This document shows positions 6,014 to 45,085 of a stretch of 64,000 nt of DNA, one piece after another. Within the stretch, counting starts at the first letter, position 1. Every line of letters begins with the position of its first letter. A program made the translations under genes and the position numbers. Below the pieces are notes generated by a model. The model was not told the DNA's origin. It did no database searches and was given only the letters and a program-made list of their open reading frames with translations. Source of the DNA: a virus; IMG/VR virus record IMGVR_UViG_3300044712_001933, positions 1 through 64,000 of that record; one strand, written 5' to 3'.

Positions 6014-6358
6014 CTAGCCGGTCCGGAACATCTCTGCCAGGCGCTCGATATCCCCCATGGTCAGCCCAGACGCTGCCAGGAATTGCTCCGGCGTCATCTG
6101 GTCTTTTAGGGACGCCGTGGGCTTAGGCGTCTGGGCACGAGTGCCCGCCTGGGCCTGGACCTTGTTAGGATCCGGCGTGGCCCGGATGACATTAATGCCG
6201 TCGCTGATGAACCCGGCCTCAACCTTATGGAACAGGTCGGAGGGCAGCGGCCCTGCGGGCGAGCTCTCCGGCGACCGTTGGGTCGGTGACGTATTGGTGC
6301 CCTTTGGCGTATTCTTCTTGCCCGAAGACCCGGGTGTCGAAATAGGTTGTTTTGGCAT
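6014..6358 (-). CDS. Hypothetical protein overlapping the end of the giant gene
   Basis: 114 aa, hydrophilic, with a Pro/Ser/Thr-rich first half and a helical C-terminal tail that includes the segment MTPEQFLAASGLTMGD. Its first 134 nt overlap the last codons of the giant protein gene in another frame, and no strong SD is visible. A shorter product starting inside this frame is possible. It precedes the RuvC-like gene by 30 nt. No family recognised. Confidence 0.5.
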   Translation of the reverse strand: MPKQPISTPGSSGKKNTPKGTNTSPTQRSPESSPAGPLPSDLFHKVEAGFISDGINVIRATPDPNKVQAQAGTRAQTPKPTASLKDQMTPEQFLAASGLTMGDIERLAEMFRTG

Positions 6359-9300
6359 AGCTTATCTTATTCTTGTCGTCTGCGTCTAATAGTACTCTAG
6401 CTTTGTCCACGTTGTCAAGCCATGCTTTTGCGTTCTCGGCATACTTGGCAGGATCCAAATGGACCGAATCGTAGCGCCCGGAGATTTCCGGGATATACTG
6501 CATGCGGATGCCGAGAATCCGTCCATTTGTGTCTTTAGCAATGGTGAACCCGTCAATGCCGGCCCGCATAAACGCTTTAATGATCGGGGCTGTCTGGGCC
6601 CGGTTCAACGTCGATTTAAAGCCTACCTCCATCCCCGGCCGAGCGTTGGGGTGGTTCTGGTCGACCACGTAGGACGCGAACACGTCTTCCTGCTTCGCCC
6701 GCTGCCCAAGGTCAAAAATCTGCTTCTCGAAGTGCGGGAGAGCATCTGACCCGTGGAACGTGGCTTCAACGTCGAACGTCGGCTCGCGCTCGAACATGAA
6801 CATGCCGTCTGAGGCATTCACACGAGACGCCATGAGGCCGGGCATCTTGCCAATGGCTCGGCGGAGGTCCTGGCGCTCCTTTTCAAACACGCCGATGTCT
6901 ATCCCGCGCTGTTCTTTTCGCGCCCCGGGGTACTCCGGCGGCAGGAATTCTTTGCGCGCGGTGGTCACGCCCGCCTGGGCCCTGACGGAGCCGCTCAGAT
7001 CCACGGCCCGGAAGTCGCCCTTCTTCTTGCCGGCGGCCTCGGTCCAGTCCTTTTTGTCCCAGAGATCCTTCTCGGCAAACCACAGGATCGCCTGCATGTC
7101 GTCAGGCTCCAGGCCGGCCTTCTCGGCAGCATATCGGAAGCCCTTTTGGGCCAGGACGAAGTCCCCACCGTACTCACCCTCTTTATTGCGGCCGTAGGAC
7201 ACCCCGTTTTCCTGCTGGGGCGTGATCCTCCACTGCGGCGTATCCTTGGAATAGAGCAGTCGGCGGACCATGCGGGCGGCCCAGACGTCGATCGTGGCCT
7301 CAAAGGTGCGTCCGGTCAGGTTGCCGGCAAAGTTGGGCGTCTTGGGCCCCTTGGTGCGCTCGAGCCAGTCCCCGTACAAGACGTCCAGGACTTTGGCGCT
7401 GTTCATGCCGAAGAGCTGTCCGTCTTCCTTGGTCGGGAGCTGCCCCCAACTCGCGGGATCTCCGCCGGCTTCCCGGTGCTTGTCGTAGGAGTCCAACAAA
7501 GTGTCGAAATCTCCCCGGGAGTACATCCGCATCGCTTCCAGGGCGTAGTTCAGGTTGCTTTCGACGTCCGTGTTGGCAGACGTGGCGCCTAGCAGCTGTC
7601 CAAACATCTCCAGGGTGGCTCCAAAGGCTTTTTGGAACCGTTCCCGGACGTCCGCATACCAGCCCTTGCCGGCCACGATTGCCGGGATATCTTTGACCTT
7701 TAGGTACTCCTTATACAGAAGCTTCCCTAAATGCTTCCCGCCCTTGTCTAATACTTCGGCGCTCTCCTGAGCTTTCAGGGCCTCCCGTTTGGCAATAAGC
7801 TTGTCCAGCTGTTCCTGAATCCTCGGCTTCTGGCTGACGTCGGCCTTTTTAAGGATCCTGCGCTGCGCTTCTACCTGTTTCTGGGCCGCCAAGTGCTTCG
7901 GGGCATACTTCGCTTCAACATCCTCGGCAATTTTGACGATTGCCGGAGCGTTCATCATGCCGTAGGGGATCTTCTTATACATGAGCTTGCCCTTGTTGTC
8001 GGCTCGGATAGATCCGTCCTCAGCCAGCGCGAGCTCCAGGGGAATGGATTCTGGCCAATTTTTCTGCTCCTCTAAATTCCCAAGATGCCGGGCACGCAGC
8101 TCTTCCTGAGTGGGCGGCACGTTAGGGCTGAACCGCATGGAATACGCCCCATTGGCGTCGTAGACCATCCGGTCGTTGTAAACGAGCCGCAGCCCCTGAG
8201 CCGTTGCGGCATCCTCGAGGGCCGCGCGCTGCCCCCGGGGCAGGCTCTCAAAAGTGCTCCCGCGTCGGCCGGTAACATAGAGGGCCCCATCCTCTTTCTG
8301 AGCACGCAGGAAATTACGGCCGGCCAGCTCGTCGTAGACGCCGGCGAGGCGATCCATGCTCTGGACCTTCAACGGCTCGCCATACACTTTTTGGTGCCAA
8401 TCGGAGGCAGCAACTTCATGCCCTCCAGAGGCGTCCATCAAGGAGCCGTCGGGGCGGACCCAGAATTTGCCGGGCGTAGCGTTGGACGCTTCAGGCAGCA
8501 CTTCAGAAATGAGGGACTTCGCCTCCTCGGGGGTGCTGGCGGATCCGATCTTGTAGAGCTTCCCGCCGGCAATCTTCTGCTGCAGCTCGTAGAGGCCGCC
8601 CCGCGGCACCACTTCGAACCTGTCGCCGCCGACTTCCGCGCGCCACCGGTCCGTGCCGACTTCCTGCCAGTCCAGATTCGGAGAGTAACGAGCGTCCGAG
8701 ACCTCTGGGTTGAACCGCTCGGACAACGGGATGACGTTGCCCTGGTCGTCCTTCGTTACGGGGTCAAGAAGTTTGCCCGTGCCGTCGGTTTCGCCCTCTT
8801 TCAGGCCAAGCTTTGCCAGGTCAAGCCCACCCCCATCCCACGGCATCGTCTTTTGCCCCGCATCGGTCAGTATCTTGTTGACCTCGGCCTCGGACAAAAT
8901 CTTGTTGACCTTCATGGATCCAGAAATGATCCACTCCCCGGTCATGTTGGGGTTCGTCTTGTACCGATACATGCCGTCGGCGGGCATCTGTTTGATGTCC
9001 GCCTTGACCGCACTGAATTTTCCGGTCTTCGGGTTGACCCCGTTCTGACGGGCCTGGGGCTGGTAGTCCTTGTCGGCCGCTACCTCGACTTCTCCCCAAA
9101 CTTCGTTGGCGCGCCGGGCGTAGACGTTCCCATCCGGCCCCTTGACACCAATGTGTGTGGCCAGCGGCGTATCACCCGCGTGCCATCCCGGCCGGAAGGC
9201 TAAGTCGCCTAGCTTCGACTTCACCCCGCCGGTCTTACTCTCGGGACCCGGCAGTGCGTCGAGCCATACTCCCGTGGGAATCGCCTGGTTCGCCCCCACA

Positions 9301-12300
9301 AATAAGGGGAAGAGCTCCCCGGGCCGTTTGGGGTTCGTCGAAAAGAGCTTATACGCCTTGACCGTCTTCTGAGGGGGCGCCGTGCGCCGCACTCGGAACG
9401 CTGTCGAGCCGCTATCATCAACGATCGGCAGCCCAGACTCCTCGGCGGCCTTGTTGACCATCTGCTGGGCCTTCTCCATGTCGCCGGAATTCACGGCGTC
9501 CAGGTATTCGGAATCGATGTCTGGGCTGAAGCGCGCGCCTTTCGGAGCTACGGCTTTCGTCCCGCCCTCGCCTTGGCCTAGCGGTGTCAGGGCGATCTTG
9601 GGAAACGTCATCGCCACGGTCCGCTTGTCGTTCGTGTCAACAACGAGGCCGGCGTAGCCCGCGTCCCGCAGCATATCGTCGGCAGCTTCCCGATTGATCA
9701 TGCTGAAATACCCCAGCGGGTCGGATTTGCCGGCGCGCAAGTCGTAAAAGCGGCTGCCGTCAACGACGGCGCCATACGCGTACTTGTTATTGAACAACGC
9801 CTCGTCCTGGCCAAAATCGGACCCTTCCAGGAACAGGTAGGACTTGTTCCCACCGCGCAGATCCCGCGGGTTCGCGGAGCCCTTGCCAAAATACTTAGGA
9901 TCCAGCGTTTTGAGGTTCTGCCTCCCGCTGTAGTGAATCAGCCGGAGCGGAATGGGACCAACAGAGTAGGGCAGGGTCCCCTTACCTTTCAGCTGGATGT
10001 CGTCAGCCACAGCCGGGCTGGCCTGGATGGGTGAAGGATGAGCGGCCGGGTTGGAGCGCGCTTTTAAAGCGCTGTCCAAAACCTCGTCCGCCGTGGAATC
10101 GGGCGTGAGATTGAGCACCTTTTTCTGGTACTCGCCTCTAGCGAGCGGAGCGTCGCCAGGCTTCACCGTCTCCATGCGATCAAGCCTGAACGACCTGATA
10201 ATGCCGACCCGGTCCTTGCCGGTAAGCGCTTCCCGGAGCGGGTTGGCCTTCATGTTGGCCACGTTACGGCCGATCACGACGGTGTTGATGAAATCGCGCT
10301 TTGCCTGACCGATACCGTCTTCGCCCGGGCGTCCCTCCGAGTGGTTTTTCAGGTAGGTCACGAAATCCTTGCGGAATTCTCCCTTGTCCCCGTTCCAAAG
10401 AGGATCGAGCTTCCCGCCGGCCTGCAGCTCGGTTGCCCGTTTCTCAAACGTAGTCAGGTCGAGCATGACAAAAAGCACGTTCCCGCCCTTAGCTGCAGCC
10501 TTTCCCCCATCCAGGGACACGGTGCCTTTTTTAGTCACCACGATGGCTATCGGGATGCCCTCCCGCTCGGTGAAGGAGAGGTTGCCTAACGTCTTGCCGA
10601 GGTTCCGAGCCCATCCGCCAGGCATGCCGCCGGACGTCGAGATAGCGTGATAGATGAATTTGACGGGGGTGCCGCTGGCGATGGCTTCCTCCAACAATTT
10701 CGCGTACCCCTTGTGGTCCTCACTATACTTTTGTAGGGCGGCAAACCACGCCGGCATCTTTGTGCCGGTGACAGCCACGCCTCCGCCGACCTGGGCCCGC
10801 GGCGCCACTTCGGGATTCGGATCCCCGATAGGCTTGACGGGCTGCTCGCCCATCGCCGCCTCTACTTCCTTGGCGCGCGCTTCCTCAGTTTTACGGACCT
10901 CCTTGGGAGTAAGCTCGCGGACCTTACCGTCAGCCGTTTGGACGACGAAGTCATTGCCGACGGTCCCATCAGCCTGTTTGTGCAGCGGTAGCGGGCCACC
11001 CTCTTTGCCCACCATCTCTTTAGTGACTGGGACAGCTTTCTCCTTAACCTCAGTGATGCCCGGCAAGCGGTTGTTAAGCTCTCGAATGTACCCATAAGTG
11101 AGTTTGCGCAGGGCAGGGGAGTCCAACACGTCGTCCAAATTCGTAAAGAGGGACTTATACCCGGGCCGGGTCTCGGTTCGAACACCGATGGCAGAAAGGA
11201 TCTTACGGCCAGCGCTGAGCGCCAGGTCGGTCAACCCCGGGGAGCGAATCACGTCGTTGTAAATGTGCTTGCCCTTTAAAGACCCAATCCCGGCGTCGGC
11301 GAAGATTTCACCGTAGATCCAGGCATTAGAGTCACCGTAATCGACGGTCGACCGGTGCTGTTGCGACGCAAGCTCCGCGTCGATTGTGGCTTGATACTCA
11401 GGAGAAGCTTTCCATGCCTCGTACTGCTGGTACTTGCGTTCCTGGACGGCTCGCTCCGCGTCAGTTCGAGCGGAGGCGACCTGTTCAGGAGTGGCATCAG
11501 GCGTTAGCGGGGCGCTCTTCAGCTGAGCGTCTACCTCGGCGGCGTATTCCGGAGACTTCCTCCATTTTTTGAGCTCGGCATCTTTTCGGCCGACCACCAG
11601 GCGCTCCGAGTATTCGCGGGCAGCGGCCTGGAGGCGCGCAGGGTCACCAATGGCCGAGTCGATCACGGACCGGATGTGCGGGCTATTCGCCGCCTCAGAC
11701 GCCATAATGGCGTGGCTGACTTCGTGGTAAAACGTGTCGGCAAGATTCCGGCCGCCCTCCATGTTAACCAAAACGACGGGCTTATCCCCATCCCGGAAAA
11801 ATCCAGCGGTGCCGTCGCCTCCGCCCTTCGCGGCATACTCGGCGCCGTTTACGAATCGGATGTCTAAACTCCTTCCAAAAGCCTTTTGGAGGCGCGCGGC
11901 CGCAACCATGACGTCGTCGGTAATGGTGCGAGCCATCAGTTCCGGATCCGCCCCGTTGGCGAGCTGTCGCGCCACCATTTCGGTGACGTTTTGGGCGTCC
12001 GACTCCCAGACCTTGGCTTTCTTCTGCCAGGGGTGGGTGGCCAGGCGCATGCCGTAGCCGAGGGTCCCGCCCGAGCCGATGGATGCCCCGAGCTCTTCAG
12101 GATTCTCGGCGGTAAGGGCCCCGATTCCGGCACCGAACGCGGCACCGTGGGCGGTCGACTTAGCGACATCCTTGGCAAACCGGGCACCTTTTTCGACGCC
12201 GAGGCTGTCCAGAAAGGTCGCGGACACTTTCAGCCAGTCGGCAGCGTCCGGATTGGCTGCGACCTGTTTTAGCCGGGAGAACTGAGGATCAAAAGTGGTG

Positions 12301-13406
12301 GACATGAGGTGCCGGCCGGCGTCAGCAGCACTCTGCAGACCCTGTCCAGCGACTTTCAGCCCTTTGGCCCCGGCGATCGTTGTACCGAGAGGGCCGAGGG
12401 CGCCCACGACGCCGGCCCCGGCGCCCACGTTCGTGAGCGTTTGCGCAGCCTTCTCAGCATACGCAGGCCCCACCATTTTCTCGGCGGTCTTTTCAATGAG
12501 CTTCTCGGGGAGCTCCCCGACAAATTGAGCGGCCGCGCCGAGCTTATCAGTCGCAGCGACAGCCGTATTGGCGACCCGTTCCGCGGCTTTCCCAGGAAGC
12601 TGAGCAGCTTTTGCCGCCAGTGCCGTGAGCGTCGGGGCAGCCTCGGCGATCTTTGCGGGAAGCTGGGCAGCTTTGACGGCGGCCGCGGTCAGTGTAGGCG
12701 CAGCCTTGGCGATGGCACCCTGTACCCCATGAGTGGCCGCATGCTTGATGGCGGACTTGACAGCCGAGGACACCCCGAGAGACCCCACAAAACTGGGATC
12801 GAGGACGTTCGAGGAAAACTCAGAAACCTGGTTGTAGGGGAGAGCCGGCAGCAGCCAGTCCGGTGTTAGATTTCCTTTACCGTCGAGCCCTTGTTCTCGT
12901 TGCTGTTGGGCGGCCTTATTCGCAATCAGCCGCTGGTAATAAGCTTGGAAATGCTCCTCGGGGGACAACTTGGTAAAATGGTCCCACGCCTTGTTAGACG
13001 CCATCCGGACCATGTTCCCCATGTCATAGAATCCGCGCGACAATCCCTCTATGGCAGAAGCCCCAAGACGGGGTGCCGTATTCCGGCCCAGGTCTGACCA
13101 AACCTCATAGGCACCCTCGCCCAAAGATTTGCCGACGCTGTTCACTCCTCCAGCAATTCCTTTCCCGAGATCGGACCAAAACCCCCCAGAGAAGAACCCC
13201 TTCGATTGATCGTCCTCGTAAAGCTTTCGCGCCTGGGCTTCGTTAGGGATAAAAGTACTCCCCTCGGCGCCCGTCATCTGCTTGAGCTCGTCCACGGTCG
13301 GCTCCTGAGAACGGCCAGTAAACACCACCCCGTTCTCCCCTTTAGACTGTTGTGCAGAAGCTGGCTCGGCGTCCATTGTCCTGCCCGTATAGATTATGTC
13401 GTCCAT
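6225..13406 (-). CDS. Giant multidomain polyvalent / internal-virion-type protein
   Basis: 2393 aa, start supported by AAGGGG close to the ATG. Residues about 200-450 are an Ala/Gly-rich amphipathic region that could insert in membranes. Residue about 560 carries a zinc-peptidase motif, FYHEVSHAIM (HExxH). Residues about 1155-1270 contain an 'IHYSG...LDP' segment like those of phage polyvalent proteins. Residues about 1345-1525 form another distinct module. Residues about 1900-2090 end in TIDVWAARMVRRLL, which recalls HhH-GPD DNA-glycosylase folds. Such giants are usually injected with the DNA to disarm host defences or ease entry. Domain names are by resemblance only. Confidence 0.7.
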   Translation of the reverse strand: MDDIIYTGRTMDAEPASAQQSKGENGVVFTGRSQEPTVDELKQMTGAEGSTFIPNEAQARKLYEDDQSKGFFSGGFWSDLGKGIAGGVNSVGKSLGEGAYEVWSDLGRNTAPRLGASAIEGLSRGFYDMGNMVRMASNKAWDHFTKLSPEEHFQAYYQRLIANKAAQQQREQGLDGKGNLTPDWLLPALPYNQVSEFSSNVLDPSFVGSLGVSSAVKSAIKHAATHGVQGAIAKAAPTLTAAAVKAAQLPAKIAEAAPTLTALAAKAAQLPGKAAERVANTAVAATDKLGAAAQFVGELPEKLIEKTAEKMVGPAYAEKAAQTLTNVGAGAGVVGALGPLGTTIAGAKGLKVAGQGLQSAADAGRHLMSTTFDPQFSRLKQVAANPDAADWLKVSATFLDSLGVEKGARFAKDVAKSTAHGAAFGAGIGALTAENPEELGASIGSGGTLGYGMRLATHPWQKKAKVWESDAQNVTEMVARQLANGADPELMARTITDDVMVAAARLQKAFGRSLDIRFVNGAEYAAKGGGDGTAGFFRDGDKPVVLVNMEGGRNLADTFYHEVSHAIMASEAANSPHIRSVIDSAIGDPARLQAAAREYSERLVVGRKDAELKKWRKSPEYAAEVDAQLKSAPLTPDATPEQVASARTDAERAVQERKYQQYEAWKASPEYQATIDAELASQQHRSTVDYGDSNAWIYGEIFADAGIGSLKGKHIYNDVIRSPGLTDLALSAGRKILSAIGVRTETRPGYKSLFTNLDDVLDSPALRKLTYGYIRELNNRLPGITEVKEKAVPVTKEMVGKEGGPLPLHKQADGTVGNDFVVQTADGKVRELTPKEVRKTEEARAKEVEAAMGEQPVKPIGDPNPEVAPRAQVGGGVAVTGTKMPAWFAALQKYSEDHKGYAKLLEEAIASGTPVKFIYHAISTSGGMPGGWARNLGKTLGNLSFTEREGIPIAIVVTKKGTVSLDGGKAAAKGGNVLFVMLDLTTFEKRATELQAGGKLDPLWNGDKGEFRKDFVTYLKNHSEGRPGEDGIGQAKRDFINTVVIGRNVANMKANPLREALTGKDRVGIIRSFRLDRMETVKPGDAPLARGEYQKKVLNLTPDSTADEVLDSALKARSNPAAHPSPIQASPAVADDIQLKGKGTLPYSVGPIPLRLIHYSGRQNLKTLDPKYFGKGSANPRDLRGGNKSYLFLEGSDFGQDEALFNNKYAYGAVVDGSRFYDLRAGKSDPLGYFSMINREAADDMLRDAGYAGLVVDTNDKRTVAMTFPKIALTPLGQGEGGTKAVAPKGARFSPDIDSEYLDAVNSGDMEKAQQMVNKAAEESGLPIVDDSGSTAFRVRRTAPPQKTVKAYKLFSTNPKRPGELFPLFVGANQAIPTGVWLDALPGPESKTGGVKSKLGDLAFRPGWHAGDTPLATHIGVKGPDGNVYARRANEVWGEVEVAADKDYQPQARQNGVNPKTGKFSAVKADIKQMPADGMYRYKTNPNMTGEWIISGSMKVNKILSEAEVNKILTDAGQKTMPWDGGGLDLAKLGLKEGETDGTGKLLDPVTKDDQGNVIPLSERFNPEVSDARYSPNLDWQEVGTDRWRAEVGGDRFEVVPRGGLYELQQKIAGGKLYKIGSASTPEEAKSLISEVLPEASNATPGKFWVRPDGSLMDASGGHEVAASDWHQKVYGEPLKVQSMDRLAGVYDELAGRNFLRAQKEDGALYVTGRRGSTFESLPRGQRAALEDAATAQGLRLVYNDRMVYDANGAYSMRFSPNVPPTQEELRARHLGNLEEQKNWPESIPLELALAEDGSIRADNKGKLMYKKIPYGMMNAPAIVKIAEDVEAKYAPKHLAAQKQVEAQRRILKKADVSQKPRIQEQLDKLIAKREALKAQESAEVLDKGGKHLGKLLYKEYLKVKDIPAIVAGKGWYADVRERFQKAFGATLEMFGQLLGATSANTDVESNLNYALEAMRMYSRGDFDTLLDSYDKHREAGGDPASWGQLPTKEDGQLFGMNSAKVLDVLYGDWLERTKGPKTPNFAGNLTGRTFEATIDVWAARMVRRLLYSKDTPQWRITPQQENGVSYGRNKEGEYGGDFVLAQKGFRYAAEKAGLEPDDMQAILWFAEKDLWDKKDWTEAAGKKKGDFRAVDLSGSVRAQAGVTTARKEFLPPEYPGARKEQRGIDIGVFEKERQDLRRAIGKMPGLMASRVNASDGMFMFEREPTFDVEATFHGSDALPHFEKQIFDLGQRAKQEDVFASYVVDQNHPNARPGMEVGFKSTLNRAQTAPIIKAFMRAGIDGFTIAKDTNGRILGIRMQYIPEISGRYDSVHLDPAKYAENAKAWLDNVDKARVLLDADDKNKISYAKTTYFDTRVFGQEEYAKGHQYVTDPTVAGELARRAAALRPVP

Positions 13407-15737: not shown

Positions 15738-16100
15738 CTATTGGCCGTGGAACACCTTGCCGAACAGGGTCGTGTCGATAATTGGCGAGTAGCCCTGGCG
15801 CTCCATCAACGGGTAGAACGGCGAGGTGTTGGCACACGGCAAAATGACACTGCCATACCCCTTAGTTTTAACGATCTGCTCACCCCGCTTCCAGAGCATG
15901 AGACTGTCGCGAGGACTTATCCGCCGGCTGTCGAGCCAGACGTGCAGGATCGGCGTATTACAAATGGAGGCGTAGCCGGCGACAGTCCCGTCTTTTTCAA
16001 CTACATGGGTGGGAAAAAGGACGGTATGGTTGTCGGCCTGGGCGGCCTTCCACAAAACGTCCATGTCTGCCGGCAAGTATGGGCGCAATGTCGCTCTCAT
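15738..16100 (-). CDS. GNAT-like acetyltransferase-fold protein
   Basis: 120 aa starting at an ATG that overlaps the stop of the glycosyltransferase gene (ATGA), a strong sign of translational coupling. This start is preferred over upstream codons that would run back into the neighbour. The pattern MRATLRPYLPADMD...VAGYASI...ERQGYSPI is like a small GNAT fold, with the usual beta-bulge and the final 'GY' strand, but a clear acetyl-CoA loop is not seen. A joint role with the glycosyltransferase in modifying a sugar or a virion protein is inferred from the coupling. Confidence 0.5.
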   Translation of the reverse strand: MRATLRPYLPADMDVLWKAAQADNHTVLFPTHVVEKDGTVAGYASICNTPILHVWLDSRRISPRDSLMLWKRGEQIVKTKGYGSVILPCANTSPFYPLMERQGYSPIIDTTLFGKVFHGQ

Positions 16101-17224
16101 CGCGCAAGCCATAGATCGGTTTCGACGGGGCGTTCCTGGTACCACCCACGGTCCCAAATATCATAGAGGCTGTCGAAGTAGAGCTGATAGAGTTTGCCGG
16201 CGCGCTCCATCGAGAAATTATGATCCGCGTAGCCGCGTATGACGTAAGGATCCAGGTCCGGAGCCCGTTTAGCAGCCTCGAGGAATTCCGCGAAGGTCCG
16301 GCATCGAAAGCCATTCACGCCTTGCATGACGGTCTCGCTAAACACTCCCCAGTCAGTAGTGATGACGGGAGTGTGGCAGAAATTCGCCTCCGCGTGGACA
16401 CCTTCAAAGGGCCCGATATACCACGTTGGCGTGAACAGCGCGAGGGCGCCGCCCATCAATTCGTTGCGCTGTTTCGGGTCTACCGTGCCAATGTGCTCGA
16501 CGTTCTTGTACGTCGACAGATCCATGCCGTCGACGTTGCTGAGATCGCCCTGGCCGGCCACGATGAGCTTTTTACCGAGCTTCGCCGTTACCTCGCAGGC
16601 GACCGACAGCCCCTTGCGGGAAATGAGCCGGCCGACGAACAGATAGTAGTCGCCCTTCTTGGCGGGAGCTACGGGAAACTCTTCCGGGGCATAGGAATTG
16701 GGGATGACCGTGTCGTACCATGCCCCGTCCTCGACTCCCATACGGCCGTACAGGTAGTGCATCCACGCATAGGACTCAAAGACTTTGTGCTTGGCAAACA
16801 CCCCAGAGTAACCGATCCCGGACTCGACGGTGAACCGCAGATTCGTGCCCTGGGAGACCGGCAAGTGGTAGTTGCCCATGGTCACGAGGAGGAAATCCCG
16901 TTCGTCTTTTATGGCGTTGATTTCCGCCACTGCCCGGGCGTTGAAATTCTCATGGACTTTGTCCTTCGGCTCATGCTTAAAGAACTCCTTGCGCCAATTA
17001 TACTCGCCATAAGCCGCGACCCGCTCCTCTTTAGTGCCGACCGTGAAAAGTCGGTCGCACGGGACGTCACTTCCCTCAGTGCCGTAAAAAAATACAGTAT
17101 GGCCCCGGTCTTTGAGCATGCGCGCAAGCCGGATAATTTTTTGAGAATACGCGCAACTGCAAAATTCAGGTGCAGTAGGTACGTGGGCAAGGCCCAAGAG
17201 ATGAAAGCGGTATTTTTGACCCAT
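16097..17224 (-). CDS. GT4-type glycosyltransferase
   Basis: 375 aa, GT-B fold. The C-terminal half shows GDYYLFVGRLISRKG, a nucleotide-sugar site region, and GPFEGVHAEANFCHTPVI, which aligns with the EX7E motif of GT4 enzymes. The first Glu of that motif is Gly here, so activity or donor use may differ. SD GGGG lies about 10 nt before the ATG. A terminator separates it from the collagen-like gene upstream, so it may have its own promoter. It might glycosylate the neighbouring Gly-X-Y fibre or alter host surface sugars. Confidence 0.75.
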   Translation of the reverse strand: MGQKYRFHLLGLAHVPTAPEFCSCAYSQKIIRLARMLKDRGHTVFFYGTEGSDVPCDRLFTVGTKEERVAAYGEYNWRKEFFKHEPKDKVHENFNARAVAEINAIKDERDFLLVTMGNYHLPVSQGTNLRFTVESGIGYSGVFAKHKVFESYAWMHYLYGRMGVEDGAWYDTVIPNSYAPEEFPVAPAKKGDYYLFVGRLISRKGLSVACEVTAKLGKKLIVAGQGDLSNVDGMDLSTYKNVEHIGTVDPKQRNELMGGALALFTPTWYIGPFEGVHAEANFCHTPVITTDWGVFSETVMQGVNGFRCRTFAEFLEAAKRAPDLDPYVIRGYADHNFSMERAGKLYQLYFDSLYDIWDRGWYQERPVETDLWLAR

Positions 17225-17312: not shown

Positions 17313-20300
17313 CTACTCACAGATCGGTATATACCGCTGCGCTCCGCCAATGATGATCCCCAAGAATCCAACCACTTTGCGGCTATCCACGTAGGCGTAG
17401 CCGCTGGCAGTTACACTACCCGCCGCGCCCACCTGAACGACACACTCATTTCCGCCAAAATTGTTCCTAAAGCTAAGGCTACCACTGGAGCTGCTAAGAG
17501 TGACGTTGCCCGGGAACGTGTAGTTGCCCGATCCAAACGTCCCCTGCGTGATGGTGCTCGCAGACTGGGTATGACTGCTGGAGCTGCCCCCATCCACACT
17601 AATAGACCACCAAGTGTTTTGGTTATCACAGATTCTAAGCTGTTGCAGGGCCTGATCCCACAACAACTTGCCCTCCTCGGTGTTGCCGTACTCACCATCG
17701 TCCTCCCGAACGGGAGCAATGAAATCAGCTCCCCTGCAAGCAATGCGACCAGAGAACAAGACGTCGCCACTGCCAATGGTAACGGATGCGTCAGTATACC
17801 CTGGTTTTGCTGTTAATAAAGAGATCTGGCGAGCAGAAATCTGTAGCCCACTATTGTCGTCTGTGATCAGGTCGAGATCGATTAATCCTTCTGCGTTTTG
17901 TCCCCCCGGCCGACTGAAATCGTAATGCAGATGCGTGTCTTGGAGTTCACCATCCGATGGACAGTACGGGATATACGGGCGGTGTACCATAAGCCCATCA
18001 GTGCTCCCCGGGGGGCCAGGAACCCCGCTCGGGCCCGTGGCACCCGTTGAACCCGCTGCGCCGGCACTTCCAGGAGTGCCCTGCGCGCCGGCAGGCCCGG
18101 CCTCTCCAGGCTTCCCGACCCCGTAAGAAAAAGGAATGTTGGTGTCAGCAGGATGACAAACCTGAAATTGCCAGCAGTCCACATAGGCAGTGCCGGTGGA
18201 TCCCGGATCCCAATACATCAGAAGCCTGATCGATTTGGTAGTCTGGGTGATAGCGAGAGCCGCGCCGGTTCCGACGCCCCCGACGGTGGTCGCGTAACGA
18301 GTCCACCCACCGTTGCTTGCGGAGATCATCGCAACCGTTGAGTAGGCGATAATGGACGACCCGTTGACATCAGAGTAGGTCGCGAGGACCAGGGAAAAAG
18401 TTCCAGAGACGACCATGACCTTGGCCATGGCGGCCAAAAGGTAGGGGATGGCAGGATTGACGAGAATTGGAACGCTTCTGCCTAGCACCTCGCTCGTGGA
18501 AGCCACTAACTTGCCAGAATATGACCCCTCGTATTTATCGTCGGAGGACCGCACAACAGCGCCATCCCACCCATTAGAAATATTGGTGTCCTCAAAAGAT
18601 GGATTTATGACGAGATTAGCACCAACGCCACGAGGTCCGGAGGGGCCTTGTGCGCCTGCACTTCCGGGGATGCCTTGAAGCCCGCTCGGCCCGGTTGCCC
18701 CACTTGGGCCTTGTGCTCCGGGACTGCCAGGAGTGCCAGGACTTCCAGGGACCCCGCTCGGCCCGGTTGCCCCACTTGGGCCTTGGGCGCCCGGGCTGCC
18801 TGGACTGCCTGGGCTGCCGGGAACCCCCGAAACCCCTGTTGCCCCGGTTGGTCCTTGTGCGCCAGGACTGCCGGGAGTGCCAGGGGTCCCGGGAACTCCT
18901 GAAACCCCTGTTGGCCCAGTTGGTCCTTGTGCCCCGGGACTGCCGGGAGTGCCAGGACTTCCAGGAACCCCCGAAACCCCCGTTGGGCCTGTTGGTCCTT
19001 GTGCCCCGGGACTGCCGGGGGTGCCAGGACTTCCAGGAACCCCCGAAACCCCAGTTGGCCCAGTTGGTCCTTGTGCCCCAGGACTTCCAGGACTGCCGGG
19101 GGTGCCCGGAACCCCCGAAACCCCAGTTGGCCCAGTTGGTCCTTGTGCCCCAGGACTTCCAGGACTGCCGGGGGTCCCAGGAACCCCTGAAACCCCTGTT
19201 GGCCCGGTCGCCCCAGTATTTCCAAGTGGTCCTGTACTTCCGACCGGGCCTGTACTTCCGACCGGGCCTGTACTTCCGACCGGTCCTGTACTTCCGACCG
19301 GCCCAGTTGGTCCGGTACTGCCGACTCCGCTAGGGCCGGTTCCACCAACTACCCCGCTCGCCCCGGTAAAACCGCGCGGCCCGGTTGCCCCGGTCTCGCC
19401 CTTGCCCGGCGGCCCGGTCCAACCTTGCGGCCCAGTTGCCCCAGTATTTCCAAGTTCGCCTCGAGGCCCGGTCGCCCCGGTCTCACCGCGCGGGCCGGAC
19501 TCGCCAACCCCTTGGGGCCCGGTCCAACCTTGGGGCCCGGTCGCCCCAGTATTTCCAAGTTCGCCTCGAGGCCCGGTTGGCCCGGGATCACCCTGCGGGC
19601 CGGTTTCACCGACCCCCCGAGGCCCGGTTGGCCCGGTATTTCCAAGTCCACCGACGGGCCCGGTCGCGCCTGTATTTCCAAGCTCCCCTTGAGGCCCGAC
19701 CGGTCCTGTACTTCCGACCGGTCCTGTACTTCCGACCGGTCCTGTATTTCCGACCGGTCCCGTCCCGCCAACAGGGCCAGTACTCCCAGTGGCGCCTTGG
19801 GTCGCCGCAGGCCCAGGGGGACCTTCCGGCCCGGTTGCCCCAGTACTTCCAGCGGGTCCAGGGGGCCCGGATTCGCCTTGTGGGCCAGTTTCGCCCTTGC
19901 CCGGCGGCCCAGTCCAACCTTGACTTCCTGTGGGTCCAGTGCTACCGACAGGGCCGGGCGGCCCCGGGCTTCCAACATCTCCGGGAACCCCGCTCGGCCC
20001 GGTTGGGCCAGGAACCCCAGGGACTCCGCTCGGCCCGGTCCCACCACCAACCCCAGGAACCCCGCTCGGGCCAGTACTCCCCGTATTTCCAGGCGGGCCA
20101 GGAACCCCGCTCGGGCCAGCCGGGCCCGTACTTCCAACACTCCCAGGCACGCCGCTCGGACCAGTGCTGCCCGTATTTCCAGGCGGGCCGGGGTCACCAA
20201 CGGCGCCAGTAAATCCGCGAGGCCCCTGATCCCCACTTGGGCCGGTAAAACCGCGAGGCCCGCTCGCACCGGTATTTCCAGGGAGACCAGGGTCCCCGCT

Positions 20301-20450
20301 AGGGCCGGCCGGGCCAGTACTTCCGACACTCCCAGGAACCCCGCTCGGGCCAGTACTACCCGTGGCGCCCTGCGTCGCCGCCGGCCCAGGAGCGCCTTGA
20401 GGCCCGGTTGCGCCCGACGCTCCAACATTGTATAGAGAAACTAATGGCAT
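17313..20450 (-). CDS. Collagen-like fibre with galactose-binding-like insert
   Basis: 1045 aa. Residues about 10-608 are some 200 uninterrupted Gly-X-Y triplets, rich in Pro, Ser and Thr. Then about 170 residues (starting [10 protein letters not shown]) look like a carbohydrate-binding jelly-roll module. A second short Gly-X-Y stretch of about 13 triplets follows, then about 225 C-terminal residues that could form the trimer head. Phage collagen-like proteins form triple-helical fibres. Here the order (short N-terminal anchor MPLVSLYNV, stalk, lectin-like module, stalk, tip) suggests a host-recognition fibre. It opens with the same TACTAATT-type start context as the adaptor gene. Confidence 0.85.
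18640..19215 (-). repeat. Tandem 72-bp units in the collagen-like stalk
   Basis: Eight or so near-identical 24-residue units of the type [13 protein letters not shown]...SPGAQ follow one another. Shorter identical blocks (GPVGST) lie just upstream around 19200-19320. Their close identity suggests stalk-length variation by unit gain and loss. Confidence 0.8.
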
Positions 20451-21350: not shown

Positions 21351-23501
21351 TTAACTAGTTCCTCCCAAGCGGGCTTCGAAATAGTAGCCGGCGATACGCC
21401 ACTCAGCGTCCTCTTCCGCGCTGAAAAACCGAAGCCGCATATACCGTCCCGACGCTTTGATGTTCACGGCCGTTAAGTTATTCCCACCCCCAGAGACTTC
21501 AGCCGATTTAATCTCGGACCACTTAATAGGGCTGCTGGAAGACTCGCGCGTGCCCACCTGGACGCACACGTACATCGGCTTCTCTCGCTTCGACGGAACG
21601 TGGATGTCCAACCAGATGGTGTTGACGTACTTATACCGGGTTCGATCACCGAAATCGAAATCCGGGGTCTCGGCCGCGCAGAGGTAGGGGTTGGGCACGC
21701 AATCGTTGCTGCTTGCCCGTGAAAACTGCCGGCCGTGGAGCAGTAAGCGCGGAACGCTATCTACCCCAATTTCACCATACGCCGGATTCGGTGAATCGCT
21801 ACTAATTCCAATAATCGTGTGCCTCTGGGCACCCTCGTCGACGTATTCTCTCCACTTCTTGGTCTCATCCTCCCACACTTGGGTGGTGGGCAAATCGGCC
21901 CAAGTCGTAGAGACCTCCCAATCGATGCCTCCCAACGCGGTGACGTCGCCAATCCCCTGGTCGTAAACGTCGATCGTGACCGAGCCCTCCCGCATGTCAT
22001 AGACCAGCACCTCAGGCACGGACGATCCCAGCACCGGATAGACCACCCAGAGCTCGTGATCCCTCTCGTGGTGGTACATCACAATCTCATCCCGGCGCGA
22101 CTTATCAAAGCGCTCAAAGAGCTCGCGCGTGTGCATGTCGCCGATCGACGTGATTGCCTGCCCGCCGTTGTAAATATAGATGTTGTCGCTGCCCCAGAAG
22201 GCGATCCCAGAAACCGACTCATCCTTGTAAATCCGGCACCAGGCATGGCGGGCCGCGGGACCCTGGTTGGGGACCTCCAGCCGGGCCAAAAACGTGCCGT
22301 TGGCTTTTCCCACGGACTGGAGACTTTGGATTGACCTCTCCTTGAGGATATACCCCAACTCCCCGATCGCTACGATGGCAAAAATCTCCCCGTTAACGTC
22401 GGATCCAATGTTTTGGAACTCGCCGGCGTCGTTCGCATCCACCGACCGGACCACCGCGCCGGCAGGAATGGACTTTCCGACCTCAATTCCGCCTGTATAC
22501 CCCAGCGCCCTGAGCTTTACAGCCCCCTGGTGAGCCAATTCGGACCCGGGGGCTATGGTGACAGGGTCCGAGGCGGAAACCTCGACCCAGGGCTGTACAG
22601 TGACCACGGCGCCCATCGGTACGATGTATCCCTCACCGTGCCGGTTCGTGCCCACGTTGAGACGTTTTAGCCCGAGGGAGGTCCCGACCCGGATGATCTC
22701 GAACAGATCCCGGCCGACTCCCCCGGTAGAATCGAGGGAAACGACATCCCCGACCTTCAGAGTGGACGGCAGGCCAGAAACGGGCAGGTAAAAGACGTCA
22801 TTCGTGGGCGGCACGACGTTGGGAACGGCCACAGTGACATTCGTAGCCACGTCCCGGGAAGCGTTCGTCACCGTCAAGCCATGGGACTTCCCATCCACCA
22901 AAACCATACCCCCGACGGTCCACTTGGCGTAAGCGGTCGTGAAAATCTTGGCAGTTCCCGAGATCTCTTGGGCAACCCCAATCGAGTCGCCCTTGGCGCT
23001 GTCGGCGGACAAGACCTCCTCAACCAGATAAAAGTTGTAAGTGGCTTTCGACAAATACTCCTCATCCAGGTCGATGCGGACATACTGGCCCGTGGAGAAA
23101 ACCGCTCCAGAATCGTCTAAATAAACCCATTCCGTGGCGGACCCTCGTTCCGGCTGGGCGAAAGGCCGCGAGAGGGTTCTCCGGGCGGTAACGGCCGTCT
23201 GACCGACCGGGATCCACATCGAAAAATCCGACGGATCGCTGTATTTGACAGTCGTGTCCCGCCACAGCAATAGCCTGCCGTTCAAAGACTCAACCCCAGA
23301 CCACGGCGTGCTGTCAGGAAGACCAGGTAACGGCCGAGCCCGGCCTTCCCCAGGCCAATATAAGGGCGCGACCGACGGCTGGGCGAAAATGACCTTGTTC
23401 TGATAGTTGCACATCGACCATCGGGCAGAAGGCCCCGCCGCGGCCCCTTCGAAAATAGGGCTCAGGGTCGCTACAAACTGACCTGCATAAGGTGTTATCA
23501 T
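21351..23501 (-). CDS. Tail nozzle protein, main part
   Basis: 716 aa. The N-terminal region has the signature of podovirus nozzle proteins of the T7 gp12 / P22 gp10 class: WSMCNYQNKVIFAQ, then PLYWPGEG, then LNGRLLLWRDTTVKYSDPSDF. The remainder is beta-rich with repeated sandwich-like segments and ends in a domain with RYMRLRFFSAEEDAEWRIAGYYFEARL. It begins abruptly, lacking the usual 'rRNV...G.l.rRPG' opening, and that opening is present in the gene just upstream. Confidence 0.75.
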   Translation of the reverse strand: MITPYAGQFVATLSPIFEGAAAGPSARWSMCNYQNKVIFAQPSVAPLYWPGEGRARPLPGLPDSTPWSGVESLNGRLLLWRDTTVKYSDPSDFSMWIPVGQTAVTARRTLSRPFAQPERGSATEWVYLDDSGAVFSTGQYVRIDLDEEYLSKATYNFYLVEEVLSADSAKGDSIGVAQEISGTAKIFTTAYAKWTVGGMVLVDGKSHGLTVTNASRDVATNVTVAVPNVVPPTNDVFYLPVSGLPSTLKVGDVVSLDSTGGVGRDLFEIIRVGTSLGLKRLNVGTNRHGEGYIVPMGAVVTVQPWVEVSASDPVTIAPGSELAHQGAVKLRALGYTGGIEVGKSIPAGAVVRSVDANDAGEFQNIGSDVNGEIFAIVAIGELGYILKERSIQSLQSVGKANGTFLARLEVPNQGPAARHAWCRIYKDESVSGIAFWGSDNIYIYNGGQAITSIGDMHTRELFERFDKSRRDEIVMYHHERDHELWVVYPVLGSSVPEVLVYDMREGSVTIDVYDQGIGDVTALGGIDWEVSTTWADLPTTQVWEDETKKWREYVDEGAQRHTIIGISSDSPNPAYGEIGVDSVPRLLLHGRQFSRASSNDCVPNPYLCAAETPDFDFGDRTRYKYVNTIWLDIHVPSKREKPMYVCVQVGTRESSSSPIKWSEIKSAEVSGGGNNLTAVNIKASGRYMRLRFFSAEEDAEWRIAGYYFEARLGGTS

Positions 23502-23505
23502 GTAA

Positions 23506-26052
23506 TTAGCCTGGGAGATCTGGCAGTGCCGTTATCGGAGGGCCGGAATATTCCACGTAAGTAAATACCTCAATGACCCCATTGAACTCGTCCTGAACTT
23601 GCCCCTCGAGCGGGTCGGGACCGTCGTCATGCAACCAGAGCTTGAGCTGGGCGGAGAACTGGTACTGCCGGGCCCCGTTGGTAGTCCAGAAGAACGAGTA
23701 CTCCGGATCTCCAGGATTGGTCCCTCCAATAGGATAGTAACGAACCAATGACCGGCCTTGAAAATCGGGGTCGTGGGCGAACTTGTCGACGACTTCGTTC
23801 TGCAAAAGAGTCCTGTGGAATTCCATCCACCCCTCCAGGGGGGCGTACTTCCCGGTGTTGTAGTCGAACGTGAGCGGCCAGAAAAACTTCGAGATGATGC
23901 ATCGTGTTTGGGCGTTTTCCGGAGGATTCTGCCCAGTCCACTCGTCGACAACAGTGGTCGTGGTCGGCGGAGGAGTGGCGCCCGAACAAATGAGATTGGG
24001 AAGACTGGCGGCCTTCAAAACGAAGTCGTCAGCAGTCTTAAAATTGAAGTACTTGTTGGTCGACGCCACCGCGGTCCATTGAGACTCATACGCCGCGGGA
24101 ATGTTGTAGCCGAGAACGTAGACCGCTATGCCGTCATCCTTCAGAGCGTCAGCCCGAAGAACGGCGTCCTCGACGGCTGCGGCAATTGCCGCTTCCCCGT
24201 CCGAGATGTCCCCACCGATCTTGACGTTCATAGGCCCGCCGTCGGTGAGCACAACCACAACTTTCTGAGCGCCGGCCCTCGTCATGGTGCCTGCGACTTC
24301 GCGCTGAGCCGCAAGCAGCGCTCCAGAGACTCCCGTGTCCCCACCCGAGCGCAAGTCGTCGAGCTTTCGCTTCACGAGAGCGATATCGCCCGTCTTGCCC
24401 TGATTCACCGTGACATCTTCGAGCTGGTTCGCGTAATCCCCGGCGAACGACACGAGCGCCGCTTGATCGCCGGCCGCCAGAGAGTCCAAGAGGACGCTCG
24501 AGGCGAGCTTAATCTGATCGAGCCACGTTCCGGGCCATTTGGAAGACCGGGTAGAATCAGACCGATCAGCAACGATAACCAGGTCCAAAGGGGCGTCGAG
24601 GCAAACCGCTTTGACAGTGAAAGAGGCCGCCGCCGTCAGAGAGCCAAAAGTAGCAATGATCGAAGCGGTACCGAGACCCAGGCCGACAGCTTTGCCAGCA
24701 GCAACAGACGCCCGGGCCGTGCTAGACGAAGACCACGAACACGTCGAGGTAACGTCCTCCCGAGACCCGTCCACATAGGACACCTCCGCCCGGAACTGCC
24801 AGGTCTTGCCGACCTCGACAGTGGCGGCCGCCGGCAAAACAGCCAGCGACTTAGGAGTCTTGGAAACGGGTGGCACGTAAATGTTGTCCCCATCACCGGG
24901 ATCCTCCGTGGTAGTGTCGTGGGTGACCTCATCGATAGAGTGCCATTTCAACGACAAATGCTCGGTGCTGGCCTCGATAAGGCAGCAGCCGTAGTCGGAG
25001 TTGTAATGGTAGGAGCTGCCCGTGACAGGAGACCCAAAAGCACCCGGTGACCACTGTCCCCCGAGACCGTTGACTGCATAGATGATACCATCCCGCGAAA
25101 TCTCCTCGTAGGTGGGAGAGGCGGATGAAAGGACCAGCTTAACTCCCCAGGTGGCAAAGGGCCATCGAAGACCAGAATACCCATGGTCGACCATGTTGCC
25201 GGACGTGTAGGGGCAGTTATATAAAACGACGATCGGCCAGGGGCAGTCCGAATTCTCGGCCACGGAACGAGCCCAGGCATACTGCGGCGAGGTCGTGGGA
25301 TCCTGATGACTGAGGATCTCCTCGCCGTCCAACATGATAAAGTGGCAAGGGCCATACTTGAAATCGTAATAGCCGAGGTTCCCATTAAAACCGTAGAATT
25401 CGCGCCACGCGTCAATGTCAGCAGCGTTGGCTTCCCCGTAACCACGGGCAGGGAAGAAAAGCTTCTGACCAGGACCGCGGCCGTAGGGGCCGACATATTG
25501 GCCGATATAGGGCCAATACCAGCGGCCGACCAGTTCGTCATAGACCGAGTATTTACTGGTCTGTCCAGCATTTTCAGCAATGGCGTTGCCCGAGTGAACA
25601 ACGAACATCGGATCCAGCTTCTGGACAAGATCCGAGACAAGATCAGAAGGCTGGCTGATGCCGGCAGTATTGCCCACCCAAGCAAATCGGATGAACCCAA
25701 GAGTTTGATTCCCAACTCGACCCCCACAGATGAGTGGGCGAGACCGGCGGAGGATGGTATAAAGCCGGCCTCCGGTGCCGATGATCGGCGTCGTGCGGGC
25801 TTCCAGATCGTTGTTTAAAATGTTGGCCTGCCGGATCAAGCACGGGGCACTGTCCAGGCTGTCCTCGCTCAAGACCACCCGCTCATACCCGGGGGCGTTG
25901 CGAAGGGTGCCGCGGGAAACGCGCACGTTACGCGCGACGGTGATGGCGCGCTTGTACTGACTTTGCTGACGGCCGGTCAAAGACGATGGCGCGGCCGTGA
26001 CCAATCCGATGGTAGGGGCGTCGACAGTGACTCGTTGGAGGTTGGGCTTCAT
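23506..26052 (-). CDS. Nozzle N-terminus fused to pseudo-phosphoesterase, Ig-like and vWA domains
   Basis: 848 aa from the Met at 26052, one base past the upstream stop. The longer frame overlaps the neighbour. Residues about 25-100 resemble a nozzle opening (ITVARNVRVSRGTLRNAPG). Residues about 118-335 align by eye with a purple-acid-type metallophosphoesterase, but metal ligands are replaced (GNTAG, SGN, GYGEAN, YNCP, SASP). Residues about 399-481 are a BIG2-like Ig fold. Residues about 488-680 are a vWA domain with an intact MIDAS (DRSDS, GDTGV, LTDGG). A ~170-residue tail follows. Likely a tail surface protein. Confidence 0.7.
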   Translation of the reverse strand: MKPNLQRVTVDAPTIGLVTAAPSSLTGRQQSQYKRAITVARNVRVSRGTLRNAPGYERVVLSEDSLDSAPCLIRQANILNNDLEARTTPIIGTGGRLYTILRRSRPLICGGRVGNQTLGFIRFAWVGNTAGISQPSDLVSDLVQKLDPMFVVHSGNAIAENAGQTSKYSVYDELVGRWYWPYIGQYVGPYGRGPGQKLFFPARGYGEANAADIDAWREFYGFNGNLGYYDFKYGPCHFIMLDGEEILSHQDPTTSPQYAWARSVAENSDCPWPIVVLYNCPYTSGNMVDHGYSGLRWPFATWGVKLVLSSASPTYEEISRDGIIYAVNGLGGQWSPGAFGSPVTGSSYHYNSDYGCCLIEASTEHLSLKWHSIDEVTHDTTTEDPGDGDNIYVPPVSKTPKSLAVLPAAATVEVGKTWQFRAEVSYVDGSREDVTSTCSWSSSSTARASVAAGKAVGLGLGTASIIATFGSLTAAASFTVKAVCLDAPLDLVIVADRSDSTRSSKWPGTWLDQIKLASSVLLDSLAAGDQAALVSFAGDYANQLEDVTVNQGKTGDIALVKRKLDDLRSGGDTGVSGALLAAQREVAGTMTRAGAQKVVVVLTDGGPMNVKIGGDISDGEAAIAAAVEDAVLRADALKDDGIAVYVLGYNIPAAYESQWTAVASTNKYFNFKTADDFVLKAASLPNLICSGATPPPTTTTVVDEWTGQNPPENAQTRCIISKFFWPLTFDYNTGKYAPLEGWMEFHRTLLQNEVVDKFAHDPDFQGRSLVRYYPIGGTNPGDPEYSFFWTTNGARQYQFSAQLKLWLHDDGPDPLEGQVQDEFNGVIEVFTYVEYSGPPITALPDLPG

Positions 26053-26053
26053 T

Positions 26054-27013
26054 CTAGTACCAGTATTCGACATAGACGTAACCCGAGGAGCCCGCAGATC
26101 CGTTGGCGCTGACCTTAGCGGAGCCGCCGGCGCCCGGGCAGATAAGAGCAACCCCACCATCGCCAGGCCGGCCACCGAGGCCGCCTACACCAGTTGCGAG
26201 CTGGGTAGCTGTGCCGCCCTCTCGCTTCAGTCCACAGATACCGTGTTGAGGGTCCGAAAACGTATACGAAGCGAGGGCTCCGCCGGACCCGGGGGCTATG
26301 TTATTGCCGGACAACCCCCCGGGAGCTTTAACCCAGCGGTTTTCCGAAATCTTAACCTGCGTGAGGCCCCCATCGGTCGCCTCCGTGCTGTTCGTTTGTC
26401 CAACACCGCCCAGCCCCACCCAAATAGTCAGAAGATCTCCAGGAGAAACGGCCATGTTGACGTCGAAGTAGGCACCCCCGCCACCACCCCATGCGGTTGC
26501 TCCAGTAGCCCCACCACCACCAGGGCCCTGCCCCCGAATCCTCAAACGCGTCACGCCAGACTTATTGTTTTCTTCGTCGGCAGCGGGCACTGTAAACGTG
26601 TACTGTGCGACAGCCTGGCCCTCAACAAGGGTACGAGTAGCGTTAGCGTTGGTGATCTGATCCGTTGCGTGGTCCCAAATAGCGCTCGCGTCGGCTTCGA
26701 ACCACGCCGCGTACAGCTGAGTCCCGATCGGAGGATCCACTTGATGCACGGACGTCACCAGGCCCTTGGAATTGACCGTGACCCGGTTGCCGGTCATCGT
26801 CCCGCTCGAGGCGCCCGGAGAAGGCTCAAGGCTCTTAAGGGCGCTGGGAGGAATGACGTTCGTCTGCCAATCCCCCGTCTCAGGCACCCAATACCGGCTT
26901 ACGAAATTGACCAGGTGCGCTTTAAGCTGGCAAATCCAATACGCCCCGCGCTTAACCTGATCGTCGTTACTAGGCTGACCAATTTTGAAATCTTCCCCGA
27001 AATATCCTGGCAT
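26054..27013 (-). CDS. Glycine-rich tail-fibre-like protein
   Basis: 319 aa. The N-terminal ~130 residues look like an attachment domain (MPGYFGEDFKIGQ...). The C-terminal half carries GPGGGGATGATAWGGGGG, GLGGVGQ, GGLGGRPGDGG and ends YVYVEYWY, the style of glycine-rich adhesin domains in phage fibres, where glycine loops present variable recognition surfaces. It sits between the adaptor and nozzle genes, which fits a fibre docked at the neck or nozzle. Confidence 0.7.
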   Translation of the reverse strand: MPGYFGEDFKIGQPSNDDQVKRGAYWICQLKAHLVNFVSRYWVPETGDWQTNVIPPSALKSLEPSPGASSGTMTGNRVTVNSKGLVTSVHQVDPPIGTQLYAAWFEADASAIWDHATDQITNANATRTLVEGQAVAQYTFTVPAADEENNKSGVTRLRIRGQGPGGGGATGATAWGGGGGAYFDVNMAVSPGDLLTIWVGLGGVGQTNSTEATDGGLTQVKISENRWVKAPGGLSGNNIAPGSGGALASYTFSDPQHGICGLKREGGTATQLATGVGGLGGRPGDGGVALICPGAGGSAKVSANGSAGSSGYVYVEYWY

Positions 27014-27019
27014 AGTCTG

Positions 27020-27652
27020 TTAACCCCCCATTCTATTTAATCTACTCGATAATTTGCGTTTTTCATCATCCCCGGCCGCTTCCCGAAACCTCCGCGCGTA
27101 AACGGTCTCCCAGTCGACAGACAGCGGATCGTTGAGCTCCTCAAAAGCCACCGCTTTCACCTTGGCTTTCAGCATTTCTGGGTAATTCGTCAACAGAGAA
27201 TTCGTGCTGGCTTCGAACTCGAGGTCGGGCAGAAACCGATAATAAGAAAACGTGAACACCAGATTGTCCGAAGGCTGCCCAAGGACGTTCAGAGTCTTTT
27301 CGACTCCGTCCTCGTCGTTGTCCAGATAAACCGGGAAATTGCTGCGAGACAGCCCGAACCGGGCCACGTTATCGCGATCGACGACATCACACGGAACACC
27401 AAAGCGGGTGCCGTCCGAGAGCCACACGGCCGGCTTCGTAGGCGTGAACTCCTTGAAGTCGGCCGGCAGTGCCGCCGACGAATTCCCAGAAAGGATCGTG
27501 ACGGTGCCGGTGTGCTTCATGCAATACCAGGAGCGGTCCCGGCAAATGGCCCGGAGCGCGGTGTTAATCCAGACCGGGTACATGTCGGCCAGGTCCGGCC
27601 GGCAGACGCCGATCTCCAATGTGCGAGTGAGATCTCTACGGGTTACAATCAT
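27020..27652 (-). CDS. Head-tail adaptor (gatekeeper-type) protein
   Basis: 210 aa, mostly helical ends with a central beta part. The opening MIVTRRDLTRTLEIGVCRPDLADMYPVWINTALRAICRD is the usual start of podovirus adaptor / tubular-A-like proteins, and size fits. It lies between the capsid block and the nozzle genes, the expected position for a ring that joins portal and tail. Confidence 0.65.
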   Translation of the reverse strand: MIVTRRDLTRTLEIGVCRPDLADMYPVWINTALRAICRDRSWYCMKHTGTVTILSGNSSAALPADFKEFTPTKPAVWLSDGTRFGVPCDVVDRDNVARFGLSRSNFPVYLDNDEDGVEKTLNVLGQPSDNLVFTFSYYRFLPDLEFEASTNSLLTNYPEMLKAKVKAVAFEELNDPLSVDWETVYARRFREAAGDDEKRKLSSRLNRMGG

Positions 27653-44725: not shown

Positions 44726-45001
44726 ATGAACACGACAACAGCAACTACGACGGCGACTAAGCCGACCTATTACGAGACCTACCTCCGGCTGATAAAGCAG
44801 GTCCGGGGCGACAAGCGGATCGACAGGATTTTTTGCAGCGCTGAGGAGAATGCAGCGGACTCGGCTCGTGAAGATGGGTTCAAGCCATACAGCGAGGAGT
44901 ATTATTCGACCCTGCTGGGCAGCCTATCCTCGGCCGCGGAAGCATACGAGGATGTCGCCTACGCCAGCAAATGGTTTGCTCGTCGCGGATATCGCATTTA
45001 G
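44726..45001 (+). CDS. Hypothetical protein, 91 aa
   Basis: A Thr/Ala-rich start (MNTTTATTTATKPTYY), then a helical body with ERIF-like pattern (KRIDRIFCSAEENAADSAREDGF) and C-terminal YASKWFARRGYRI. The ATG lies 9 nt after the -10 box, so the message would be nearly leaderless. Its direct link to an operator-bearing promoter makes it a candidate immediate-early gene. Function unknown. Confidence 0.55.
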   Translation: MNTTTATTTATKPTYYETYLRLIKQVRGDKRIDRIFCSAEENAADSAREDGFKPYSEEYYSTLLGSLSSAAEAYEDVAYASKWFARRGYRI

Positions 45002-45006
45002 TCGAA

Positions 45007-45085
45007 ACGGTCTTCGGACCGTCTGATCCGGCTGGCCTCGGATCACTGATGAGACAGGCCAAAATGTTTACAAACAAGATTTATG
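45007..45085 (+). promoter_or_regulatory. Two hairpins and GATTTATG start context
   Basis: ACGGTC-TTCG-GACCGT (45007-45022, UUCG loop) and GATCCG/CGGATC (45025-45044, 8-nt loop). The ATG at 45083 has the context AAGATTTATG. Confidence 0.6.

Follow-up and report, generated by a model that had tools for sequence, protein, structure and literature searches.

The podophage nozzle is regarded as a single-chain protein with a propeller that seals the DNA channel. In the Pseudomonas phages tf, Clew-1 and Bjorn, one nozzle gene of ~515 residues follows the adaptor and tail-protein genes, and the solved relatives of this nozzle family are the Pa223 nozzle (PDB 9nwi_Y) and gp17 of SU10. The four Ig domains of the SU10 nozzle sit between blades 2 and 3 of the propeller (PMC9509320), an Ig domain also occupies the blade 2/3 joint in the crAss001 muzzle (PMC10172136), and Vibrio phage OWB offers a precedent for receptor binding by nozzle-type proteins (PMC7241545). 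Distal nozzle modules are already known from SU10 and crAss001; the new elements at the locus described here are the split nozzle gene and the vWA domain, and in the literature searched we found no precedent for a two-gene nozzle or for integrin-type vWA cargo on a nozzle. Of the new tail design proposed in an earlier, sequence-only reading of this DNA (hereafter the initial annotation), a distal module at this joint is not in itself novel.

The DNA analyzed (the window, 64,000 nucleotides) covers positions 1-64,000 of IMG/VR record IMGVR_UViG_3300044712_001933 (69,605 bases), and all features below lie on its minus strand unless indicated. The gene series comprises terminase, portal, scaffold, SU10-type capsid protein, adaptor (SU10_adaptor, 27020-27652, PF24175, E = 5.6e-13), a 319-residue Gly-rich tail-fibre gene (26054-27013, phrog_863, E = 5e-9), P0001 (23506-26052, 848 residues) and P0002, the nozzle C part (21351-23501, 716 residues), i.e., the gene order of tf, Clew-1 and Bjorn, with the nozzle genes placed after the adaptor and tail-fibre genes as in SU10/LUZ24-type podophages. 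The fibre gene, directly upstream of P0001, occupies the position held in relatives by a Collar-domain gene (PF07484 in the relative L090), and in the gene order of the window, L085, L089, L090 and L099 the end of the fibre or collar gene adjoins the start of the nozzle. Both P0001 and P0002 are free of internal stops, with a codon usage that resembles that of neighbouring genes. Their junction (23502-23508) reads TAA-TTAC before ATG: four bases (TTAC) lie between the P0001 stop and the P0002 start, P0002 is in frame +1 relative to P0001, and it begins at an ATG of its own, which an AGG precedes by 8 nt. Where SU10/LUZ24-type nozzles are a single polypeptide, the window has two ORFs with a stop between them, and its nozzle is therefore a split variant and not a plain member. 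The initial annotation had named a full-length nozzle elsewhere in the genome as a possible refutation; neither a second nozzle nor an extra N- or C-part was found in the 69.6-kb record, which carries no statement of completeness. Rfam gave no group I or group II intron above its cut-offs between the halves, and an intron separating them was rejected on this ground.

We consider it likely that one SU10/LUZ24-type nozzle subunit is divided between P0001 and P0002, which would form a two-chain propeller on which P0001 presents a distal module. The observed basis is homology, gene order, the position of the break, its recurrence and the lack of a second nozzle in the record.

Several other features of the window and its relatives were recorded alongside the nozzle. 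A type II hammerhead ribozyme (45000-45063, plus strand, 48 bits, E = 1.5e-6) scores above the Rfam gathering score. Shortly downstream of the nozzle lies a 1045-residue collagen-repeat protein (17313-20450, PF01391, E = 2e-83), a possible partner of the nozzle vWA, and the relative L074 has collagen-like repeats too, directly after its nozzle C gene. A 2393-residue protein with a DUF7178 domain (6225-13406, phrog_30118, E = 6e-57) is perhaps an ejection protein. Glycosyltransferase genes in the tail modules of the window (16097-17224), L073 (8582-9930) and L090 (5820-8401), called with Pfam support in the window and L090 and by eye in L073, suggest glycosylated tail or fibre proteins.

Relatives of the nozzle were retrieved by a capsid-protein scan, which gave three closer relatives, and then by nozzle-profile scans, which gave the further ones; such profile scans were required, as single-sequence scans of viral contigs with P0001 or P0002 returned no relatives. 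A phage tblastn search with P0001 gave no match, and scans of genome contigs gave no prophage relatives.

The nozzle N-segment corresponds to P0001 residues 1-105 (25738-26052), supported by a relatives-only profile and the match to L099, and contains the platform strands, blade 1 (VARNVRVSRGTLRNAPGYERV) and most of blade 2 (LIRQANILNNDLEARTTPIIGTGGRLYTI), the last of these being absent from the initial annotation. The podovirus nozzle opening that had been placed at this N-terminus is borne out by the profile, built with the window excluded, which found P0001 residues 7-100 at E = 2.4e-14 among the 16,203 ORFs searched. The same profile matches classic nozzle residues 22-86 with a score of 48 (maximum of 40 column shuffles, 24.5). 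As the classic-nozzle HMM alone gives 3 bits on the N-segment, near shuffled controls, the link between the N-segment and classic nozzles rests on intermediate relatives. By sequence, then, the N-terminal platform strands and blades 1-2 are present, but on the separate P0001 chain. Identities in the N and C halves are similar (33 and 33% between window and L089, 44 and 42% between L089 and L090), and the two halves diverge in step over seven aligned genomes (Mantel r = 0.83, p = 0.009), which argues that the N-segment is under similar constraint to the C part.

That the nozzle continues in the next gene is confirmed by matches of P0002 to the nozzle of L099 (residues 17-713 against 109-801, 30% identity, E = 1e-88) and of its residues 356-714 to phrog_3287 (E = 3.7e-23). 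With putative blade limits set by alignment, P0002 consists of a probable last strand of blade 2 (7-17), blade 3 (20-62), blade 4 (64-100), an inserted region (115-345), blades 5-7 (347-515) and a C-terminal platform (~600-716); its start aligns to blades 3-4 of classic nozzles with a score of 35.9, shuffles reaching at most 14.4. An AF2 model of P0002 (30-sequence alignment, mean pLDDT 68) is similar to the Pa223, VP1, SU10 and P22 nozzles (Z about 20-23) and to 9nwi_Y in particular (VIA Z 23.4, rmsd 5.0, 395 residues aligned). This last alignment starts at chain residue 50 of 9nwi_Y and not at ~98, so that the model is not itself evidence of two missing blades. P0002 alone should be incomplete, since in T7 gp12 the N-terminus provides the velcro strand and part of the platform barrel (PMC6702177).

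The start of that structural match bears on one of the alternatives, in which P0001 would be an accessory adhesin that borrows the nozzle N-segment as a docking tag and P0002 a self-sufficient nozzle. The closure of the P0002 model is sufficient for a match to solved nozzles from residue ~50 onward, and free-standing N-segments exist, as this reading would have it; but the first residues of P0002 align to classic blades 3-4, and to the unsplit L099 nozzle from ~109, and the opening ~100 residues of a nozzle are encoded nowhere else in the record. We consider this alternative highly improbable.

The break falls between classic nozzle positions ~87 and ~99, since the alignment of the N-segment profile covers 22-86 and that of the P0002 profile blades 3-4. 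This is the blade 2/3 junction of the propeller, and the same profile position as the insert of SU10 (SU10 residues 109/518). The chain break itself probably falls inside blade 2, with its last strand on P0002, because in the AF2 model of the unsplit L085 nozzle the strand equivalent to P0002 residues 7-17 sits in blade 2 (332-342, pLDDT 74-92), whose other strands correspond to P0001 residues 72-101. P0002 modelled alone shows no strand at residues 7-17, and in the L085 model residues 1-70 (platform strands and blade 1) have low confidence (~30). Mega-alignments including distant rows misplaced the blade 2 fragments and are not a basis of these claims.

Beyond the N-segment, P0001 carries an insert of ~740 residues composed of a phosphoesterase-like block, a probable Big_2 domain, a vWA domain and a 144-residue domain. 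The first (residues 112-392, 24877-25719) resembles a degenerate metallophosphoesterase through a weak phmmer match to purple acid phosphatases (E = 0.048), which is as far as the pseudo-phosphoesterase of the initial annotation can be followed: neither PF00149 nor PF14008 matches the region at E = 10, and its identity was not confirmed by Pfam, NCBIfam or own-genome searches. At the metal-ligand positions, mapped by eye, it reads VGNTAG, HSGNA, ARGYGE, LYNCPY and SSASPTYEE, so that the expected ligands D, GD, GNH, H and GHxH are all replaced (N, GN, GYG, N and SAS). An enzyme of the calcineurin-like metallophosphoesterase or purple acid phosphatase type is therefore not claimed. The predicted Ig domain is a probable bacterial Big_2 domain (residues 398-484, 24601-24861, PF02368, E = 1.9e-4) that lies just below the Pfam cut-off (21.8 against 22.8 bits) and is backed by phmmer matches to LigA/LigB and teneurin-like Big_2 structure chains (1e-7 to 1e-19). 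The vWA domain (residues 487-697, 23962-24594, PF00092, E = 5.6e-13) is well above its cut-off (49.9 against 23.8 bits) and, aligned with the malaria TRAP A-domain, has a complete MIDAS (DxSxS...T...D) formed by D496-x-S498-x-S500 (24553-24567), T573 (24334-24336) and D604 (24241-24243). The vWA and its intact MIDAS thus stand as annotated, but they do not end the block: a C-terminal domain of 144 residues (705-848, 23509-23940) follows, without known relatives, i.e., without a Pfam, PHROG or PDB match or a relative among the 16,203 ORFs of the retrieved loci. Composition gave no sign of a recent acquisition of the insert, its GC3 and codon usage being like those of its flanks.

The closer nozzle clade has ten members (support 100/100), the window lineage is the most divergent of the group, and the gene order is common to the IMG/VR relatives. 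In L099 the nozzle is a single, insert-free ORF of 804 residues that runs directly from ...IIGTARKIYSISIPSVFPDA to VLTQLYDFGNDIASSQNRISAATFFNRVVFAQ... and is tiled by P0001 7-100 (against 9-92, 39% identity, E = 1e-6) and P0002 17-713 with a gap of only ~16 residues; it is likewise tiled by the N and C parts of L089 and by those of L090. In L089 and L090 the break falls at the window's blade 2/3 joint, without a vWA, and the halves lie 5.4 and 6.5 kb apart, separated mostly by fibre, adhesin-like or glycosylation genes (among them an Mtd_N-domain protein and a fibre-repeat protein in L089; a PKD protein, an epimerase and glycosyltransferases in L090). L085-L088 are unsplit, a single chain containing a LamG insert at the blade 1/2 joint, and L072/L074, L073 and L084 are split within LamG at that joint, with other genes between. 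In these split genomes the LamG (Laminin_G_3) begins on the N-segment gene and is completed on the C gene. The same split of LamG is probable in L104, on whose record, possibly a fragment, no N-segment was found. More distant IMG/VR nozzles are all single ORFs (44/44, 511-789 residues), with in-frame inserts at the blade 2/3 joint in L055, L057, L068 and L070 and at the blade 1/2 joint in L022. As the unsplit L099 groups with the split L090 (87/80), either fission may have occurred more than once or L099 may have been re-joined, tree support being modest. Taken together, the insert-free L099, the other insert of L085-L088 and the same break in L089/L090 support the initial annotation's view of a nozzle that a grafted module has divided between two genes.

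Two observations on individual relatives were made along the way. The N-segment ORF of L090 (2011-4175) stops (VDAGPDQEYLIGA stop) in the first strand of a PKD domain, which goes on in the -1 frame via a GTGA overlap, consistent with a frameshift, a coupled split or a slippage site. L099 has an HNH-like endonuclease ORF, identified by eye and possibly a homing endonuclease, between its scaffold and capsid genes (3863-4540).

The recurrence of the split also bears on the two remaining alternatives. A +1 programmed frameshift, or bypass at the TAA, could yield P0001 and P0002 as a single product, an SU10-like one-chain nozzle with a larger distal module; the 4-base spacing, the +1 frame of P0002 and the fact that SU10, with its insert at this joint, is one chain favour such an event, but no convincing slippery site is seen by eye, P0002 has its own start with the upstream AGG, the Rfam search gave no group I/II intron, and frameshift fusion cannot explain L089 or L090, as 5-6.5 kb of other genes separate their halves and make joining impossible. 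We regard this as highly improbable. Least credible of all is that the split reflects decay, with the nozzle gene of a defective phage broken, or an assembly artefact such as a miscalled base: the frame of the L090 N-segment does end frameshift-like inside its PKD domain, but the two window ORFs (848 and 716 residues) are open with neighbour-like codon usage, several contigs show splits, at two different joints, including the separate contigs L072 and L074 with identical gene sets, the N-segment keeps pace with the C part, and an error at one base would at best join the genes, leaving the 736-residue insert in place.

If the two genes do encode one nozzle subunit, blade 1, the N-terminal platform strands and three of the blade 2 strands would come from the first ~105 residues of P0001, and the last blade 2 strand, blades 3-7 and the C-terminal platform from P0002, with the two chains joining in trans via strand complementation. 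Six such pairs would make up the tail-tip ring beneath the adaptor. By analogy with the SU10 Ig domains, the remainder of P0001 may leave the propeller at their exit point and take a distal position, where the Big_2 and vWA domains would be held near the cell surface for metal-dependent binding; we infer an adhesive role of the vWA on the nozzle. Fission at this joint would make the distal module replaceable while leaving the channel-lining blades untouched.

The large grafted vWA module that P0001 carries besides the split nozzle suggests that the nozzle is a socket repeatedly plugged with host-recognition modules. In an extended form, which we hold to be unlikely, the nozzle would be an exchangeable socket whose vWA MIDAS, in this phage, engages either a ligand on the host or the collagen-like fibre of the phage itself, so that release from this contact triggers nozzle opening. 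A chain bearing the ~100-residue N-segment would complete the propeller by strand complementation and serve as a plug for unrelated modules (vWA in the window, PKD or LamG in relatives, the Mtd-like and fibre genes between the L089 halves), and the vWA could be bound to the fibre at 17313-20450 much as integrin A-domains bind collagen. A propeller whose two parts are encoded separately, in some genomes at a distance of kilobases, would mean that the seal can be assembled in trans, and the blade 2/3 and blade 1/2 junctions would mark hot spots for the entry of receptor-binding modules into podophage tails, with a natural socket for swapping tail-tip modules as the predicted outcome.

Among known systems, the Pa223/LUZ24/tf/Clew-1 nozzles (phrog_3287, PDB 9nwi_Y) are the best structural match, belong to the same sequence family and share the order portal, scaffold, capsid, adaptor, tail protein and nozzle; they differ from the window in being single ORFs of ~515 residues without a distal module. 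The crAss001 muzzle gp44 (PDB 7qol; PMC10172136) likewise has a distal domain at the blade 2/3 joint, but of a different fold and within a single chain. SU10 gp17 (PDB 7z47/7z4f; PMC9509320) combines a homologous propeller and platform with a distal insert at the same blade 2/3 joint, and its distal module holds Big_2 domains, of which P0001 has one probable copy; in contrast to the window, it is a single chain of 1005 residues with four Ig domains, with neither a vWA nor a split.
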